Shown here piece after piece: positions 43,640-50,098 of a DNA stretch of 53,647 nucleotides (positions are counted from its first letter, which is position 1; every line of letters begins with the position of its first letter). Position numbers and translations under genes: made by a program. The notes beneath the pieces are model-generated. The model worked only from the letters and a program-made list of their open reading frames with translations. It had not been told where the DNA came from and ran no database searches. Source of the stretch: an uncultured Chloroflexus sp. (GTDB lineage: Bacteria > Chloroflexota > Chloroflexia > Chloroflexales > Chloroflexaceae); assembly GCF_937951745.1 (NCBI RefSeq), contig NZ_CALFBQ010000083.1, forward strand, positions 1 through 53,647. The letters are read 5' to 3'.

Positions 43640-45574
43640 ATGGCTAGCTTTACCAAGCGAATCGTTGCCGTCGCGATGGTGATGGCGATGATAATTCCGA
43701 TGCTAGCGGCTTGTGGCGGCACTGCCCAGCCGCAGGTCATCCGCGAGACGGTGGTAGTCTTGCAGACGGCCGAGCCGGTGCGCGAGACAGTCCGTGAGAC
43801 GGTCGTCGTGACCGAGGAGGTCAAGGCTGAGCAGTACACCACCCCGCACCCGATTCTGAGCGATGTGCGCGTGCGACAGGCGATTGCCTACTGCACCAAT
43901 CGCCCCGAGCTGATTCAGTCGGTTTATCCTTACCTGACGCCCGAGCAGCAGCAGGAGCTGTTGATGGACACCTTCCTGCCGAAGGCACACTGGGCGGCGG
44001 CGAAGGAGAACATCACGGTCTACCCGTTTGACCCCGACAAAGGCAAGGCCCTGCTCGAGGAAGCCGGCTGGACGGGCAGCCCGATCCGCACCAATGCTAA
44101 CGGCGAACCGCTGGCATTGAGCTTCACCACCACCAATGCCCAATTCCGCCAGACGTGGTCGGCTGTCTTCATTCGCCAGATGGCGGCGTGTGGTATTCAG
44201 GTTATTCCAACCTACGCTCCAGCCTCGTGGTGGTTCGGCAGCAGCACCGGCCTACGCCGCCGCGACTTTGAGCTAGGCGCCTTCGCGTGGGTTGGTCAAG
44301 CCGATCCGGGTGGTCAGACACTGTACTCTTGCAACCAGATTCCGCTGGCTTCTAATAACTGGAACGGCCAGAACTACATGGGCTGGTGCAATGAGCGGGC
44401 AAGCCGTGCGATTATCGCCGCGAACAACACGCTCGACCGCGCCGAGCGCATCCGCCAGTACGCAATCGTGCAAGAAGAGTTCACCAAAGACATGGTGAGC
44501 CTGCCGCTCTTCAACCGGCTTGAGGCGTATGCCGCCAGCAAACGGCTGGTGAACTTCAAGCCGAATCCGACCGAGTACTACACTGCCAATGCTGATGAGT
44601 GGGAGCTGTCTGATGGCGGCGACACCATTGTGCTCGGCTTCACCCAAGAGCCGCAGACGATGTGGAGCTTGATCGAGAGCGCAGCGGTGCAGCGTGTCGC
44701 GGTGAACCTGCTTGGCGTGCCGTCGACCACCTCTTACGATTATGACTACCAGCCGGTGGGTCTCGATGGTCTCTCGACGATCGAGAACGGCCGCGCTACT
44801 AACGTCGATGTCGAAGTCAAAGAGGGTGATATTGTCTGGACGACCGATGGTGAAGCGAAGCCGTTGGCGCCCGGCATTGAGATCACGACTGCCGATGGCG
44901 AGACGATCACGTATCAGGGCGGCACGGTCAAGATGAAGCAATTGACCGTCACTGACAAGTGGATTTCGGGCATCACGTGGGAAGACGGTGAGCCGCTCAA
45001 GAAAGCTGACTTCGAACTTGCCTACAAGATCAACTGTGATCCGAAGTCGGGTGCTACGTCGCTGACCTTCTGCGAGTCGATCGCTAAGGTTGACTTCATC
45101 AGCGACACCGAGTACACCGTCACCTTCCACCCCGGTGTGCAGTGGCCGACCTACTTCACCGGTTCGTTGGGCTACTACCCGTCGCATCAGGTGTTGAGTG
45201 ACGGCCGCAAGCTGGCAGATGTGCCGGCGGAAGAGTGGCAGACCCTGCCCGAGATTATCGAGCGCCCGCTAAGCACTGGCCCCTATGTCCTCAAGGAGTG
45301 GGCCAAGGGCCAGAGCATGACGTTTGAGGCCAACCCCAATTACTACAAGGGCGAGGTCAAGATCAAGCGGGTGATCATCAAGTTCATCGCCGATACTAAT
45401 CAGGCGGTGGCCCAGTTGCTGACCGGCGAAGTTGACGTGCTAGGCAGCGAGACGTTAGGTGCCGGCGCTGAAGTGCAGACCGTGATCGAGGCCGGTAACC
45501 GCGGCGAGATCCAAGCCTTCGTGGTGCCCAGCCCGACGTGGGAGCACATCGACATGAACCTCTTCACCAAGTAA
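43640..45574 (+). CDS. peptide ABC transporter binding lipoprotein, circularly permuted
   Basis: A 644-residue SBP_bac_5 lipoprotein. The signal ends at LAAC (Cys25), followed by a linker with repeated RETVVV/RETVRETVVV (33-57). Residues about 70-322 begin PHPILSDVRVRQAIAYCTNR and run through LLEEAGWTG, FRQTWSAVFIRQMAACGIQV and MVSLPLFNRLEAYAAS; in ordinary family members this is the second half. Residues about 328-644 begin DTIVLGFTQEPQTMWSLIE and include DYDYQPVGLDGLSTIENG, WEDGEPLKKADFELAY, STGPYVLKEWAKGQSM and AQLLTGEVDVLGSE, ending HIDMNLFTK; this is normally the first half. The halves are therefore swapped, as in a circular permutation. AAGGAGG precedes the ATG. First gene of a complete peptide-import operon. 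The ligand is unknown, by family a peptide. Confidence 0.88.
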   Translation: MASFTKRIVAVAMVMAMIIPMLAACGGTAQPQVIRETVVVLQTAEPVRETVRETVVVTEEVKAEQYTTPHPILSDVRVRQAIAYCTNRPELIQSVYPYLTPEQQQELLMDTFLPKAHWAAAKENITVYPFDPDKGKALLEEAGWTGSPIRTNANGEPLALSFTTTNAQFRQTWSAVFIRQMAACGIQVIPTYAPASWWFGSSTGLRRRDFELGAFAWVGQADPGGQTLYSCNQIPLASNNWNGQNYMGWCNERASRAIIAANNTLDRAERIRQYAIVQEEFTKDMVSLPLFNRLEAYAASKRLVNFKPNPTEYYTANADEWELSDGGDTIVLGFTQEPQTMWSLIESAAVQRVAVNLLGVPSTTSYDYDYQPVGLDGLSTIENGRATNVDVEVKEGDIVWTTDGEAKPLAPGIEITTADGETITYQGGTVKMKQLTVTDKWISGITWEDGEPLKKADFELAYKINCDPKSGATSLTFCESIAKVDFISDTEYTVTFHPGVQWPTYFTGSLGYYPSHQVLSDGRKLADVPAEEWQTLPEIIERPLSTGPYVLKEWAKGQSMTFEANPNYYKGEVKIKRVIIKFIADTNQAVAQLLTGEVDVLGSETLGAGAEVQTVIEAGNRGEIQAFVVPSPTWEHIDMNLFTK

Positions 45575-45746: not shown

Positions 45747-46940
45747 ATGGCAGGTTATCTTGCCCGCCGCTTTATGCAAATGTTCTTGGTGGCACTAGTA
45801 GCGGCAATTTGCGCCTATGGCATGTTGTATTTGGTGCCCGGCGGGCCGATTGATCAATTGCTGGCCGAACGACAAAATGCCGGGCCAAATCGAATTACAG
45901 AAGCAGATATTCGCCGCGTGCGCGAGCGATTTGAATTGGATATCTATTTGCCCTTCCGTTTTACTCGTTGGCTTATCGGCTGGCCAGCGGGGCCACTGCC
46001 CGGCGGTATTGGAGCCAATTGGCAGATTGGGTGTGCTGTGCCCGGCCAAGTGCGTCTGCGTTACCCGGATGGACGGGTGGAGGTACGCGAAGAGGGGTGT
46101 GAGGTGCCGGTAACGATGGCTGACCTTGAAGGGCGCAAGGTGAGTCGTGGGATCGTCTTTGGTGATTTTGGTACATCGCAGGTTATGCTGCGCGGACGGC
46201 CGGTTGCGGATCTGATTATGACCCGTTTGCCCTATACGCTTTACCTGATGGGGGCATCGATCTTGCTCTCGATCCTCATTGCGGTACCGATTGGCGTTTA
46301 CTCAGCGGTACGCCAATACTCGCGCTTTGACTATGTGATGACGACACTGGCCTTCATTGGCGCATCACTTCCAAGCTTTGTGTTTGGCATCTTCGCGATC
46401 TTGCTCTTCTCGGTGTTAGCTAAGAACGCTGGATTGCCCTACCTCCCCCCCGGTGATGCAGTAGGAGTACGTGATTATACAATCCCGCTGATCGGCACTG
46501 TGCAAGCCGGATCATTTCTTGATCGATTTTTACGCTTCCTGATGCCGTGTGGCGTATTAACCTTTATCAATATCGCCGGCTGGAGCCGCTTCGTGCGTGG
46601 GAGTATGCTTGAGGTGCTGAGCCTCGATTATGTGCGCACGGCAAGGGCGAAAGGCGTTGCTGAGCGGGTGGTGATTCTGAAGCACGCCCTGCGCAATTCA
46701 CTCATCCCGTTTGTCACCTTGTTGGCCGGCATTCTGGTTGCGCTCTTCAGCGGTGCGCTGATCACCGAGACCGTATTTAACTGGCCGGGAATTGGGCGCC
46801 TGTTTATCGATGCCCTTGGCCGCAATGATTATAATGTGGTGATGGCGTTGTTGATCATCAACGTCGTTTTGTTGTTGATTGGCATTTTGATCACCGACAT
46901 CTTGTATACGGTGGTCGATCCGCGCATTCGCTTGACCTAA
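45747..46940 (+). CDS. dppB: peptide ABC transporter permease (DppB type)
   Basis: A 397-residue permease. It opens GYLARRFMQMFLVALVAAICAYGMLYLVPGGPID, as in DppB. Between the first and second membrane helices lies an extracytoplasmic insert of about 75 residues (about 75-150) with two Cys residues. The remaining helices include YTLYLMGASILLSILIAVPIGVYSA, the EAA loop DYVRTARAKGVAERVVILKHALRNSLIP and ALITETVFNWPGIGRLF. AGGAG precedes the ATG. Second gene of the operon. Confidence 0.94.
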   Translation: MAGYLARRFMQMFLVALVAAICAYGMLYLVPGGPIDQLLAERQNAGPNRITEADIRRVRERFELDIYLPFRFTRWLIGWPAGPLPGGIGANWQIGCAVPGQVRLRYPDGRVEVREEGCEVPVTMADLEGRKVSRGIVFGDFGTSQVMLRGRPVADLIMTRLPYTLYLMGASILLSILIAVPIGVYSAVRQYSRFDYVMTTLAFIGASLPSFVFGIFAILLFSVLAKNAGLPYLPPGDAVGVRDYTIPLIGTVQAGSFLDRFLRFLMPCGVLTFINIAGWSRFVRGSMLEVLSLDYVRTARAKGVAERVVILKHALRNSLIPFVTLLAGILVALFSGALITETVFNWPGIGRLFIDALGRNDYNVVMALLIINVVLLLIGILITDILYTVVDPRIRLT

Positions 46941-46995
46941 TGATGTTTTGCCGGCGCTATCGCCGGTAATCAAGACGTTCACGAGGAGAAGTTGC

Positions 46996-47988
46996 ATGGC
47001 CACTAGCACGACTGCCGTGCCACTTGAAGAGGCTGCACCCCGACGATCGGAAGGGCAGTGGGCAATTGTCTTCCGGCGCTTTCGCCGCCACCGGCTAGCG
47101 ATGTTTTGTGTCGGGTTGCTTGCCGTTTTACTGTTGCTATCGGCGGCAGCTCCATTGATTGCGCCTTACGAGCGTGATGAGCCAAATCTTACCGGGCGCT
47201 TTCTCACACCGATGGGCCGCGATGCCGATGACGGTTTGCATATTCTCGGCACCGATCACCTTGGTCGCGATTATGCCACTCGTTTACTATACGCTTCGCG
47301 CGTGTCACTCGGTACAGCGTTTACCGCAACGCTCATTGCCTCAACAATTGGCATTTTGTTGGGAATGCTAGCCGGATATTTTGGCGGCTGGGTTGATACG
47401 ATTATCAGTCGCTTTCTAGAAATTGTTGCTACATTTCCGACACTCTTACTACTACTCATTTTGTCGTCTATTTTGGTACAAAATATCAATGCAGTCCCAC
47501 TACCAGCGGGGGGGGCCTCGTTCCTTGCTTTTCTCTTCGCAGTGTCAGAACGTGAGGCGCGCATTATTTTCGCCGTGATTCTGGTGCTCGCCTTTTTTGG
47601 TTGGACCGGCACGGCCCGGCTAATGCGCGGCATGGTGCTCTCGGTGCGCGAGAATGTCTACATCGAGTCGGCCCGCGCTCTCGGCGCGAGCAATGCGCGC
47701 ATTCTATTTCGCCATGTCTTCCCCAATGCCCTACCGCCAATGATCGTCGATTTTACCCTCGGCGTGAACGGCACGCTGGTCGCCGAGTCGGCGCTAAGCT
47801 TCCTTGGCTTCGGCATTCAAGACCCAACGCCAACGTGGGGCAATATGTTGGACTATGCCCAAAGCTATATGTTCCAGTACCCGTGGATGCCGCTCATTCC
47901 GGCGATGCCGATCTTGATCGCATCGATTGCGATTAACTATATTGGTGATGGTCTGCGTGACGCGCTCGATCCGCGCCAGCGCGGCTAA
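46996..47988 (+). CDS. dppC: peptide ABC transporter permease (DppC type)
   Basis: A 330-residue permease. A polar N-terminus (OppC_N-type) with QWAIVFRRFRRHRLAMFCVG is followed by HILGTDHLGRDYATRLLYASRVSLGTA, six membrane segments in all, the EAA loop ESARALGASNARILFRHVFPNALPP and ESALSFLGFGIQDPTPTWGNML. A loop near 175-195 (NAVPLPAGGASFLAFL) is longer than in most. The ATG at 46996 has GAGGAGA 7 nt upstream; the frame is open to 46948. It pairs with DppB. Confidence 0.94.
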   Translation: MATSTTAVPLEEAAPRRSEGQWAIVFRRFRRHRLAMFCVGLLAVLLLLSAAAPLIAPYERDEPNLTGRFLTPMGRDADDGLHILGTDHLGRDYATRLLYASRVSLGTAFTATLIASTIGILLGMLAGYFGGWVDTIISRFLEIVATFPTLLLLLILSSILVQNINAVPLPAGGASFLAFLFAVSEREARIIFAVILVLAFFGWTGTARLMRGMVLSVRENVYIESARALGASNARILFRHVFPNALPPMIVDFTLGVNGTLVAESALSFLGFGIQDPTPTWGNMLDYAQSYMFQYPWMPLIPAMPILIASIAINYIGDGLRDALDPRQRG

Positions 47989-48025: not shown

Positions 48026-49042
48026 GTGGCAACCGAGTCTCGTGTTGTAGCGGGCGCAGCGCGCCCAACCGGCCGGCGTGGCGCTGAACTGCTGCGCGTG
48101 GAAGGTTTGAAAACCTATTTCTTTACCGAAGATGGCATCGTGCAAGCGGTCGATGGGGTAGATTTTACCTTGCGCCGCGGCGAAACCCTCGGCATCGTCG
48201 GTGAGTCGGGGTCAGGAAAGAGCGTGACCTCGCTTTCGATTATGCGCTTAGTAAGCCCGCCCGGCCGGATTGTCGAAGGCAAGATTATCTTCGACGGAGT
48301 TAATCTGCTCGACCTTGACTCCGAAGAGATGCGCAAGATCCGCGGCGACCGGATTGCAATGATTTTCCAGCAGCCGACCACAGCGCTCAATCCGGTCTTC
48401 CGGGTGGGTGACCAGATTATCGAGACACTCGAAATCCATCAGGGTCTCAAGGGCGAAGAGGCGCAAAAACGCTGTATCGAGCTGCTGTCGATGGTGGGGT
48501 TACCCGACCCGCAGCGACGGATGCGCCAGTATCCTCATGAGCTATCGGGTGGGCAATGCCAGCGCGTGATGATCGCGATGGCCCTAGCCTGCAACCCTGA
48601 ATTACTGATCGCTGACGAGCCGACCACCGCGCTTGATGTGACGATTCAGGCCCAGATCCTTGACCTGATGCGCGAACTGCGCGAGAAGATCGAGACGGCG
48701 ATTATGCTGATTACGCACGATATGGGCGTGATCGCCGAGATGGCCGATAGTGTGGTGGTAATGTACGCTGGGCAAGTGGTTGAATACGCTGATGTGCAGT
48801 CGCTGTTTAGCGATCCCAAGCACCCCTACACCCGCGGCCTGCTCAACTCGATGCCGATACTTGGCGATGAACGCGAGGAGTTGGAGGTCATTCCCGGTAC
48901 GGTGCCGAGCTTGATCAATCCGCCTAAAGGGTGCCGTTTCGCATCGCGGTGCAGCAAACGGTTTGAGAAATGCGACCAGCCGCCGCCGATGATCGAGCTA
49001 GGCGCAAACCGGCGCGTGCGGTGCTGGCTGTATAAAGATTGA
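48026..49042 (+). CDS. dppD: peptide ABC transporter ATPase (DppD type)
   Basis: A 338-residue ATPase. After about 20 polar residues come Walker [11 protein letters not shown]-loop [14 protein letters not shown], signature [15 protein letters not shown], Walker [14 protein letters not shown] and H-loop [12 protein letters not shown]. The C-terminal oligopeptide domain has the Cys-rich pattern [15 protein letters not shown] with one more Cys near the end, as in DppD-type iron-sulfur-binding subunits. The start is GTG with GGAG upstream. It forms a heterodimer with the DppF-type protein. Confidence 0.94.
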
Positions 49043-49099
49043 CGCCAAGACGCCGTCCAGCACAACGTCTTGGTTATGACGATACGATGGAGCGAGACC

Positions 49100-50098
<999 letters not shown>

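Follow-up and report, generated by a model that had tools for sequence, protein, structure and literature searches.

Analysis of the window, the whole 53,647-nucleotide stretch of DNA from an uncultured Chloroflexus sp. considered here, revealed a gene for a family 5 solute-binding lipoprotein in which the two halves of the family's domain, SBP_bac_5 (PF00496), stand in swapped order. This permuted form is conserved across Chloroflexota, and the best reading of the sequence comparisons is that a second, independent permutation at the same site took place in Actinomycetota. The gene is a single ORF, running from an ATG at position 43640 to the end of the stop codon at 45574, with a product of 644 amino acids. 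The features of the locus are listed below.

43640-45574, + strand: ORF of the permuted family 5 solute-binding lipoprotein, with PF00496 order swapped, kept across Chloroflexota
43640-43717, + strand: predicted signal peptide with lipobox LAAC and cysteine 25, from sequence reading
43718-43837, + strand: low-complexity tether, residues 27-66 (AlphaFold pLDDT below 50 at residues 1-62)
43838-44608, + strand: usual C-terminal half, now first, residues 67-323 (profile 210-359; model 66-349 on 2d5w 311-575)
44609-44620, + strand: SDGG turn, residues 324-327, fusing the old C- and N-termini, from sequence
44621-45571, + strand: usual N-terminal half, now last, residues 328-644, ending WEHIDMNLFTK (profile 26-178; N-half model)
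45747-46940, + strand: DppB-like permease, 397 amino acids (PF00528)
45975-46199, + strand: 75-residue DppB segment, residues 77-151, with a two-cysteine insertion near the scoop motif
46948-47988, + strand: DppC-like permease (PF00528, PF12911)
48026-49042, + strand: DppD-like ATPase (PF00005, PF08352)
49070-50098, + strand: DppF-like ATPase (PF00005, PF08352)

Regarding the order of the halves, the sequence-only reading had proposed an SBP_bac_5 lipoprotein with swapped halves, and this was borne out when the halves were aligned to the profile separately: residues 70-322 matched profile positions 210-359 (67.6 bits, E 1.4e-18), while the best stretch within residues 328-644 matched positions 26-178 (100.1 bits, E 1.9e-28). 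The boundaries that it had drawn were correct to within a few residues. The whole protein scored 165.6 bits against SBP_bac_5 in two swapped stretches, exceeding the Pfam gathering score of 32.4, and this family was its sole Pfam match at E ≤ 0.01; as positions 210-359 lie ahead of 26-178 instead of following the normal N-to-C order, the protein is classed as a permuted variant. The same swap was seen with phmmer against PDB entry 2d5w (query 424-642 on chain 72-311, query 73-309 on chain 322-566). Twelve NCBIfam models matched at E ≤ 1, none of them at its curated cutoff; the best, Opp4A, gave 127.2 bits (cutoff 650), with query 63-321 on profile 304-554 as its best stretch, and the DppA model NF043070 gave 52.1 bits, below its cutoff of 1005. 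Each half is thus present once, in swapped order, and unpermuted homologs exist, as in a circular permutation. The cut falls in the short segment leading from the strand WEHLxFN to the helix LxDxRVRQA. The SDGG turn, previously suggested to join the old ends, corresponds to a gap of 3-4 residues between the half models in all 85 distinct permuted ORFs from Chloroflexota loci that retain the start of the C half, and 79 of these 85 relatives carry a simple lipobox pattern; lipidation at C25 is predicted. Cysteines 85, 184, 231, 250, 466, and 478 are invariant in 44 aligned permuted proteins, and up to three disulfides may be possible.

Structure prediction, likewise proposed in that earlier reading, gave a confident model (pLDDT 87.2, pTM 0.80, residues 1-62 below 50) from an AlphaFold input that included 43 permuted relatives of 49-96% identity. 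A Foldseek search of the whole model against the PDB returned 172 chains at E ≤ 0.001, the best 50 of which carried titles of extracellular binding proteins of this kind, with query TM values of 0.21-0.31, low values that are expected if a sequential aligner can pair only one half. With VIA-align, model residues 66-349 were placed on 2d5w 311-575 (Z 25.4, rmsd 2.0, 227 residues). Since the structure search with the whole model gave half-chain matches, a separate prediction of the N half was made (pLDDT 91.3) and used as the query; it matched 2d5w over the chain range 1-478 (Z 21.2, rmsd 2.7, 276 residues) and 1xoc over residues 18-317 (Z 21.0, rmsd 3.0, 251 residues). The end strand at 624-639 was formed in the whole model and not in the N half alone, in which residues 633-644 (whole-protein numbering) had a pLDDT below 50; loss of this strand without the C half would fit packing across the cut. 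In these models each half has the fold of the matching part of solved cluster C members, found in the region expected, and the whole two-lobe arrangement is predicted at an AlphaFold pTM of 0.80, the aligners used being sequential.

A search of Chloroflexota, also suggested at the outset, yielded both relatives of the same order and unpermuted relatives. Among 100 genomes of relatives (the source genome included), at least 54 had a single match that began within residues 1-68 and ended within 641-644, and among the matches listed G001, G004, G014, and G015 had the permuted protein in pieces. A scan of 400 genomes of the phylum, scoring three candidates per genome, found at least 41 with a one-piece match covering at least 600 of 639 positions, which among the matches listed belonged to the families coded f1, f4, f16, f32, f48, and f86; G004 and G330 gave two-piece matches. 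Phyla beyond Chloroflexota and Actinomycetota were reached only through a short-peptide scan of species genomes, which returned 59 loci, 57 of them titled as Chloroflexota groups. Another, L095, is an actinobacterium with normal order, and L083 (JAAUTF010000054.1), titled Candidatus Gracilibacteria, has a 69% identical permuted gene with a score exactly equal to that of L032, which comes from a Chloroflexus-family genome, G023; the title of L083 is probably wrong. A tally of ORFs over the window and the first 145 loci gave 125 permuted, 24 normal, and 12 with a match to one half only, overlapping loci being counted more than once.

The genes dppB, dppC, dppD, and dppF, which the sequence-only reading had described as an intact operon, are all present in the window with matching Pfam domains. 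Operon counts were made over 54 permuted loci (L037-L094), of which 53 have at least 1.3 kb downstream; dppB directly follows the permuted gene in 49 of these 53 (exceptions L070, L092, L076, and L081), and BCDF is complete at 35 of the 42 permuted loci with at least 4.8 kb downstream. An ordinary family 5 gene lies immediately upstream of the permuted gene in L051, L093, L126, and L129, and downstream of BCDF in L127, L128, and L130. Two Chloroflexus genomes have a second permuted paralog (L076:4755-7220 and L081:4611-7193) whose long frames are not tandem duplicates; they consist of the permuted protein and about 155 extra C-terminal residues, ending LYLPIINR and LYLPLLHR, respectively. Among the ORFs compared these extensions had a low-E-value match to each other only, and a Pfam scan of the L076 extension detected no family. 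The lipobox pattern is absent from the permuted proteins of L076 and L142, and the L076/L081 paralog may have a different mode of anchoring or display.

Regarding the ancestral order, separate trees of the N half and the C half were built from 34 permuted and 22 normal sequences, a selection that skipped permuted ones with an N-half score below 200. The permuted sequences formed one clade in both (95/99 in the N-half tree, 99/99 in the C-half tree). Genome G063 has an unpermuted relative (L191:6604-8550) with 43 and 52% identity over the two halves, its gene being followed by genes for B and C (each 42% identical) and for DppD and DppF (72 and 76% identical to the proteins of the window). In a joint tree of 19 permuted and 21 normal sequences, from which the long-branch sequences L143_norm, L095, L004, and L007 were omitted, the G063 protein was the sister of the permuted clade (99/95) and the next branch was the unpermuted L192 (100/99). 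With an unpermuted sister in a similar operon and L192 next, normal order is ancestral, and by these trees the Chloroflexota permutation arose once, on the branch after the split from G063. The route was probably an in-frame tandem duplication with subsequent loss of the outer halves; no fused tandem-duplicate intermediate was seen among the loci analyzed. A 958-residue frame just downstream of the permuted gene at L143 (5604-8477) was considered as such an intermediate and rejected, as by Pfam it combines a Phosphonate-bd domain (87-314) with a normal-order SBP_bac_5 domain (440-843) and so carries two binding proteins per chain.

A second permuted family was detected, confined to one class among the Actinomycetota genomes with permuted frames. 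A profile search of 100 genomes found at least three with swapped order in one frame (G545, G523, and G499, with proteins of 600, 587, and 568 residues). These proteins are cut at the same place, homology starting just before N[IV]R[KQ]AI and the chain ending in LWEHLAxxxKP plus two or so residues, where the unpermuted L169 reads WEHLAFNQKDAGSPLRDINVRKAI. The simple lipobox pattern was found in 7 of 15 distinct actinobacterial permuted proteins. Of 40 genomes from the class to which G545 belongs, 24 carry a permuted frame of nearly full length. Among 296 Actinomycetota genomes, 31 had a match at E ≤ 1e-40, comprising 17 with near-full-length permuted frames, G568 with the protein in pieces (all 18 also within the 40-genome class set), and 13 with the halves as separate matches. 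Normal order was called for the eight of these 13 in which both halves were among the matches listed (G552, G500, G463, G472, G478, G512, G528, and G535), G598, G607, G617, G646, and G676 lying outside this call. The actinobacterial permuted gene adjoins an F gene, the operon order being C-D-F or B-C-D-F; at L176 the operon that holds the permuted gene begins with an ordinary family 5 gene. L169, found in G552, a genome of the G545 class, is the group's unpermuted sister (97/91); against a profile of the three permuted proteins its halves scored 160.5 and 191.6 bits, compared with at most 78.5 and 57.6 bits for Chloroflexota permuted sequences. In L146, L147, and L148 a conserved FFxxKxxQKxxN precedes the C half and resembles the segment of L169 around the cut; this stretch may have been left over from the overlap of tandemly duplicated copies.

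Three other accounts of these data have to be weighed. The window is one whole contig (C83) of a 4.25 Mb genome, whose draft state, in 94 contigs, would suit an assembly chimera, a pseudogene or a recent accidental fusion in the source strain. Such an artefact is ruled out, and its probability is negligible, by the same one-piece order in at least 54 of the 100 relatives' genomes, including the single-contig genomes G002, G006, and G046, by the 85 permuted ORFs, and by an open frame in which differences from four orthologs are commonest at the third position of codons (in the comparison with L037, for instance, 22, 10, and 161 at the three positions). The C half of one family 5 gene might instead have been fused to the N half of another, an account that gains from the missing duplicated intermediate and from unpermuted sampling that is not dense in the half-by-half tests, and that is nevertheless very improbable given that the permuted sequences form a single clade in the tree of either half and that in the joint tree their sister is the G063 protein, which resembles both halves. 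One ancient permutation common to Chloroflexota and Actinomycetota, by descent or transfer, would explain the shared cut site and the similar operons, and forcing the permuted groups into one clade was not rejected by the C half alone (p-AU 0.155). Both halves together did reject it (p-AU 0.00022, a test made without the four long-branch sequences named above), as did a repeat with 40 chosen sequences, in which that drawn from L143_norm was also missing (p-AU 0.00028, lnL difference 117.7), and each group has its own unpermuted sister (L191a, 100/96; L169, 97/91). A single origin is accordingly judged unlikely, and two independent permutations at one site are the best reading, held with the caution that long branches and the unusual letter composition of the actinobacterial sequences urge for this rejection.

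The DppB that adjoins the Chloroflexota permuted gene carries an insertion of roughly 40-60 residues with two cysteines. In 78 distinct DppBs beside a permuted gene, the compared segment measures 69-82 residues in 77 and 174 in one, and the two-cysteine pattern is found in 72, the other six having GC plus another C. The segment has 15-48 residues in 14 of 15 DppBs unlinked to a permuted gene and 73 in one (L134:33-1220, beside an unpermuted relative), where a loop in the same place has unrelated sequence, so that the DppB loop seems prone to grow. The long segments of L088 (76) and L086 (78) belong to split or truncated permuted loci, and a DppB lacking the first helix was excluded from this set. 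In a set of 13 DppB loci (E ≤ 1e-50) from 24 genomes picked because no full permuted match was seen in them, 12 have 16-36 residues and L178 has 75, at a locus with only about 120 bases upstream, a stretch too short to show its binding protein. With 31 residues in G063, these lengths by group indicate that the insertion and the Chloroflexota permutation arose on one branch. The segment begins about nine residues past the part aligned to E. coli DppB residues 32-62. Those E. coli residues form the scoop region, which occupies the interlobe cleft of DppA (PMC12136057). Insertion and permutation may be functionally coupled. The insertion was rejected as a requirement of permuted proteins, since actinobacterial permuted operons examined are without it: 14 actinobacterial DppBs, six from genomes with a permuted gene, have segments of 15-16 residues.

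The Chloroflexus protein is very probably a tethered, circularly permuted cluster C family 5 binding protein of an ABC importer, of the peptide type. Its two lobes would close on an oligopeptide or related ligand in the manner of a Venus flytrap, and the closed protein would deliver the ligand to DppBCDF. Domain III of DppA, which we take to span about 260-478, would place the cut at one of the two lobe crossings, so that each lobe would be one continuous stretch with a single covalent crossing left, and the lipid tether would enter near the hinge. Regarding specificity, the residues that form salt bridges with the dipeptide in DppA, R383 and D436 (PMC12136057), are absent from the six Chloroflexota and three actinobacterial permuted proteins aligned, and also from the unpermuted relatives aligned, so DppA-type dipeptide specificity is not supported.

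Whether the new topology was selected can be argued in two ways. Neutral drift of topology with no change in working, the DppB insertion being an unrelated change on the same branch, has about an even chance of being correct: the insertion is not needed, as actinobacterial permuted operons do without it, and an operon inherited as a block, with one event of each kind on one branch, would explain the co-occurrence. It has to accommodate a site that was apparently cut twice, with both forms widely kept, and the presence of an ordinary family 5 gene next to its permuted counterpart in L051, L093, L126, L129, and L176, points that fall short of proving an advantage. More tentatively, and on present evidence with rather less chance of being right, a cut at the lobe crossing could have been selected at least twice because it brings the tether to the hinge, leaves a single lobe link and alters docking or release, the two-cysteine loop of Chloroflexota DppB being an answering change by which receptor and permease were rewired together.

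Among known systems, the Thermus oligopeptide-binding protein 2d5w, AppA (1xoc), DppA, OppA, and NikA are homologous to both halves by sequence and predicted structure, and the lipobox and dppBCDF operon are alike in cluster C binding proteins and the Chloroflexus protein; it differs from cluster C members in its swapped halves, its fused old termini and its new termini between WEHLxFN and LxDxRVRQA. Compared with E. coli DppABCDF (PMC12136057), gene order A-B-C-D-F is the same and the scoop-aligned region is present in the window DppB, whereas E. coli DppA is unpermuted, its R383 and D436 are not conserved in the Chloroflexus permuted protein, and the DppB segment measures 16 residues in E. 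coli against 75 in the window. The only natural permutation of an ABC binding protein recognized among the titles and abstract beginnings listed by searches of open-access full texts is that of TpMglB-2 (Tp0684) of Treponema pallidum, a tethered protein termed 'Type Ic / Cluster Bc', whose relatives share its topology; its authors suggested that anchoring might explain why it is permuted (PMC4990184). On that account TpMglB-2 is a glucose-binding member of cluster B, of another family and with another cut, while the Chloroflexus protein belongs to SBP_bac_5. The TpMglB-2 permutation also adds a fourth lobe crossing, where the Chloroflexus one would remove one of two by the domain boundaries assumed here. 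The sequence-only reading knew of no permuted family 5 member, and likewise no permuted family 5 or cluster C member was found in the open-access full texts searched, subscription papers and preprints being outside this scope.

What is new here is thus a cluster C protein that appears to have been permuted twice, independently and at the same site, this repeated origin being the strongest point. As both permuted groups have unpermuted sisters, topology and function can be compared inside matched operons, and the cut site marks a place where these binding proteins tolerate cutting, which is useful for sensors. The family makes testable how tether position and the number of lobe connections bear on delivery to the permease, and provides a natural experiment in the rearrangement of transport proteins.
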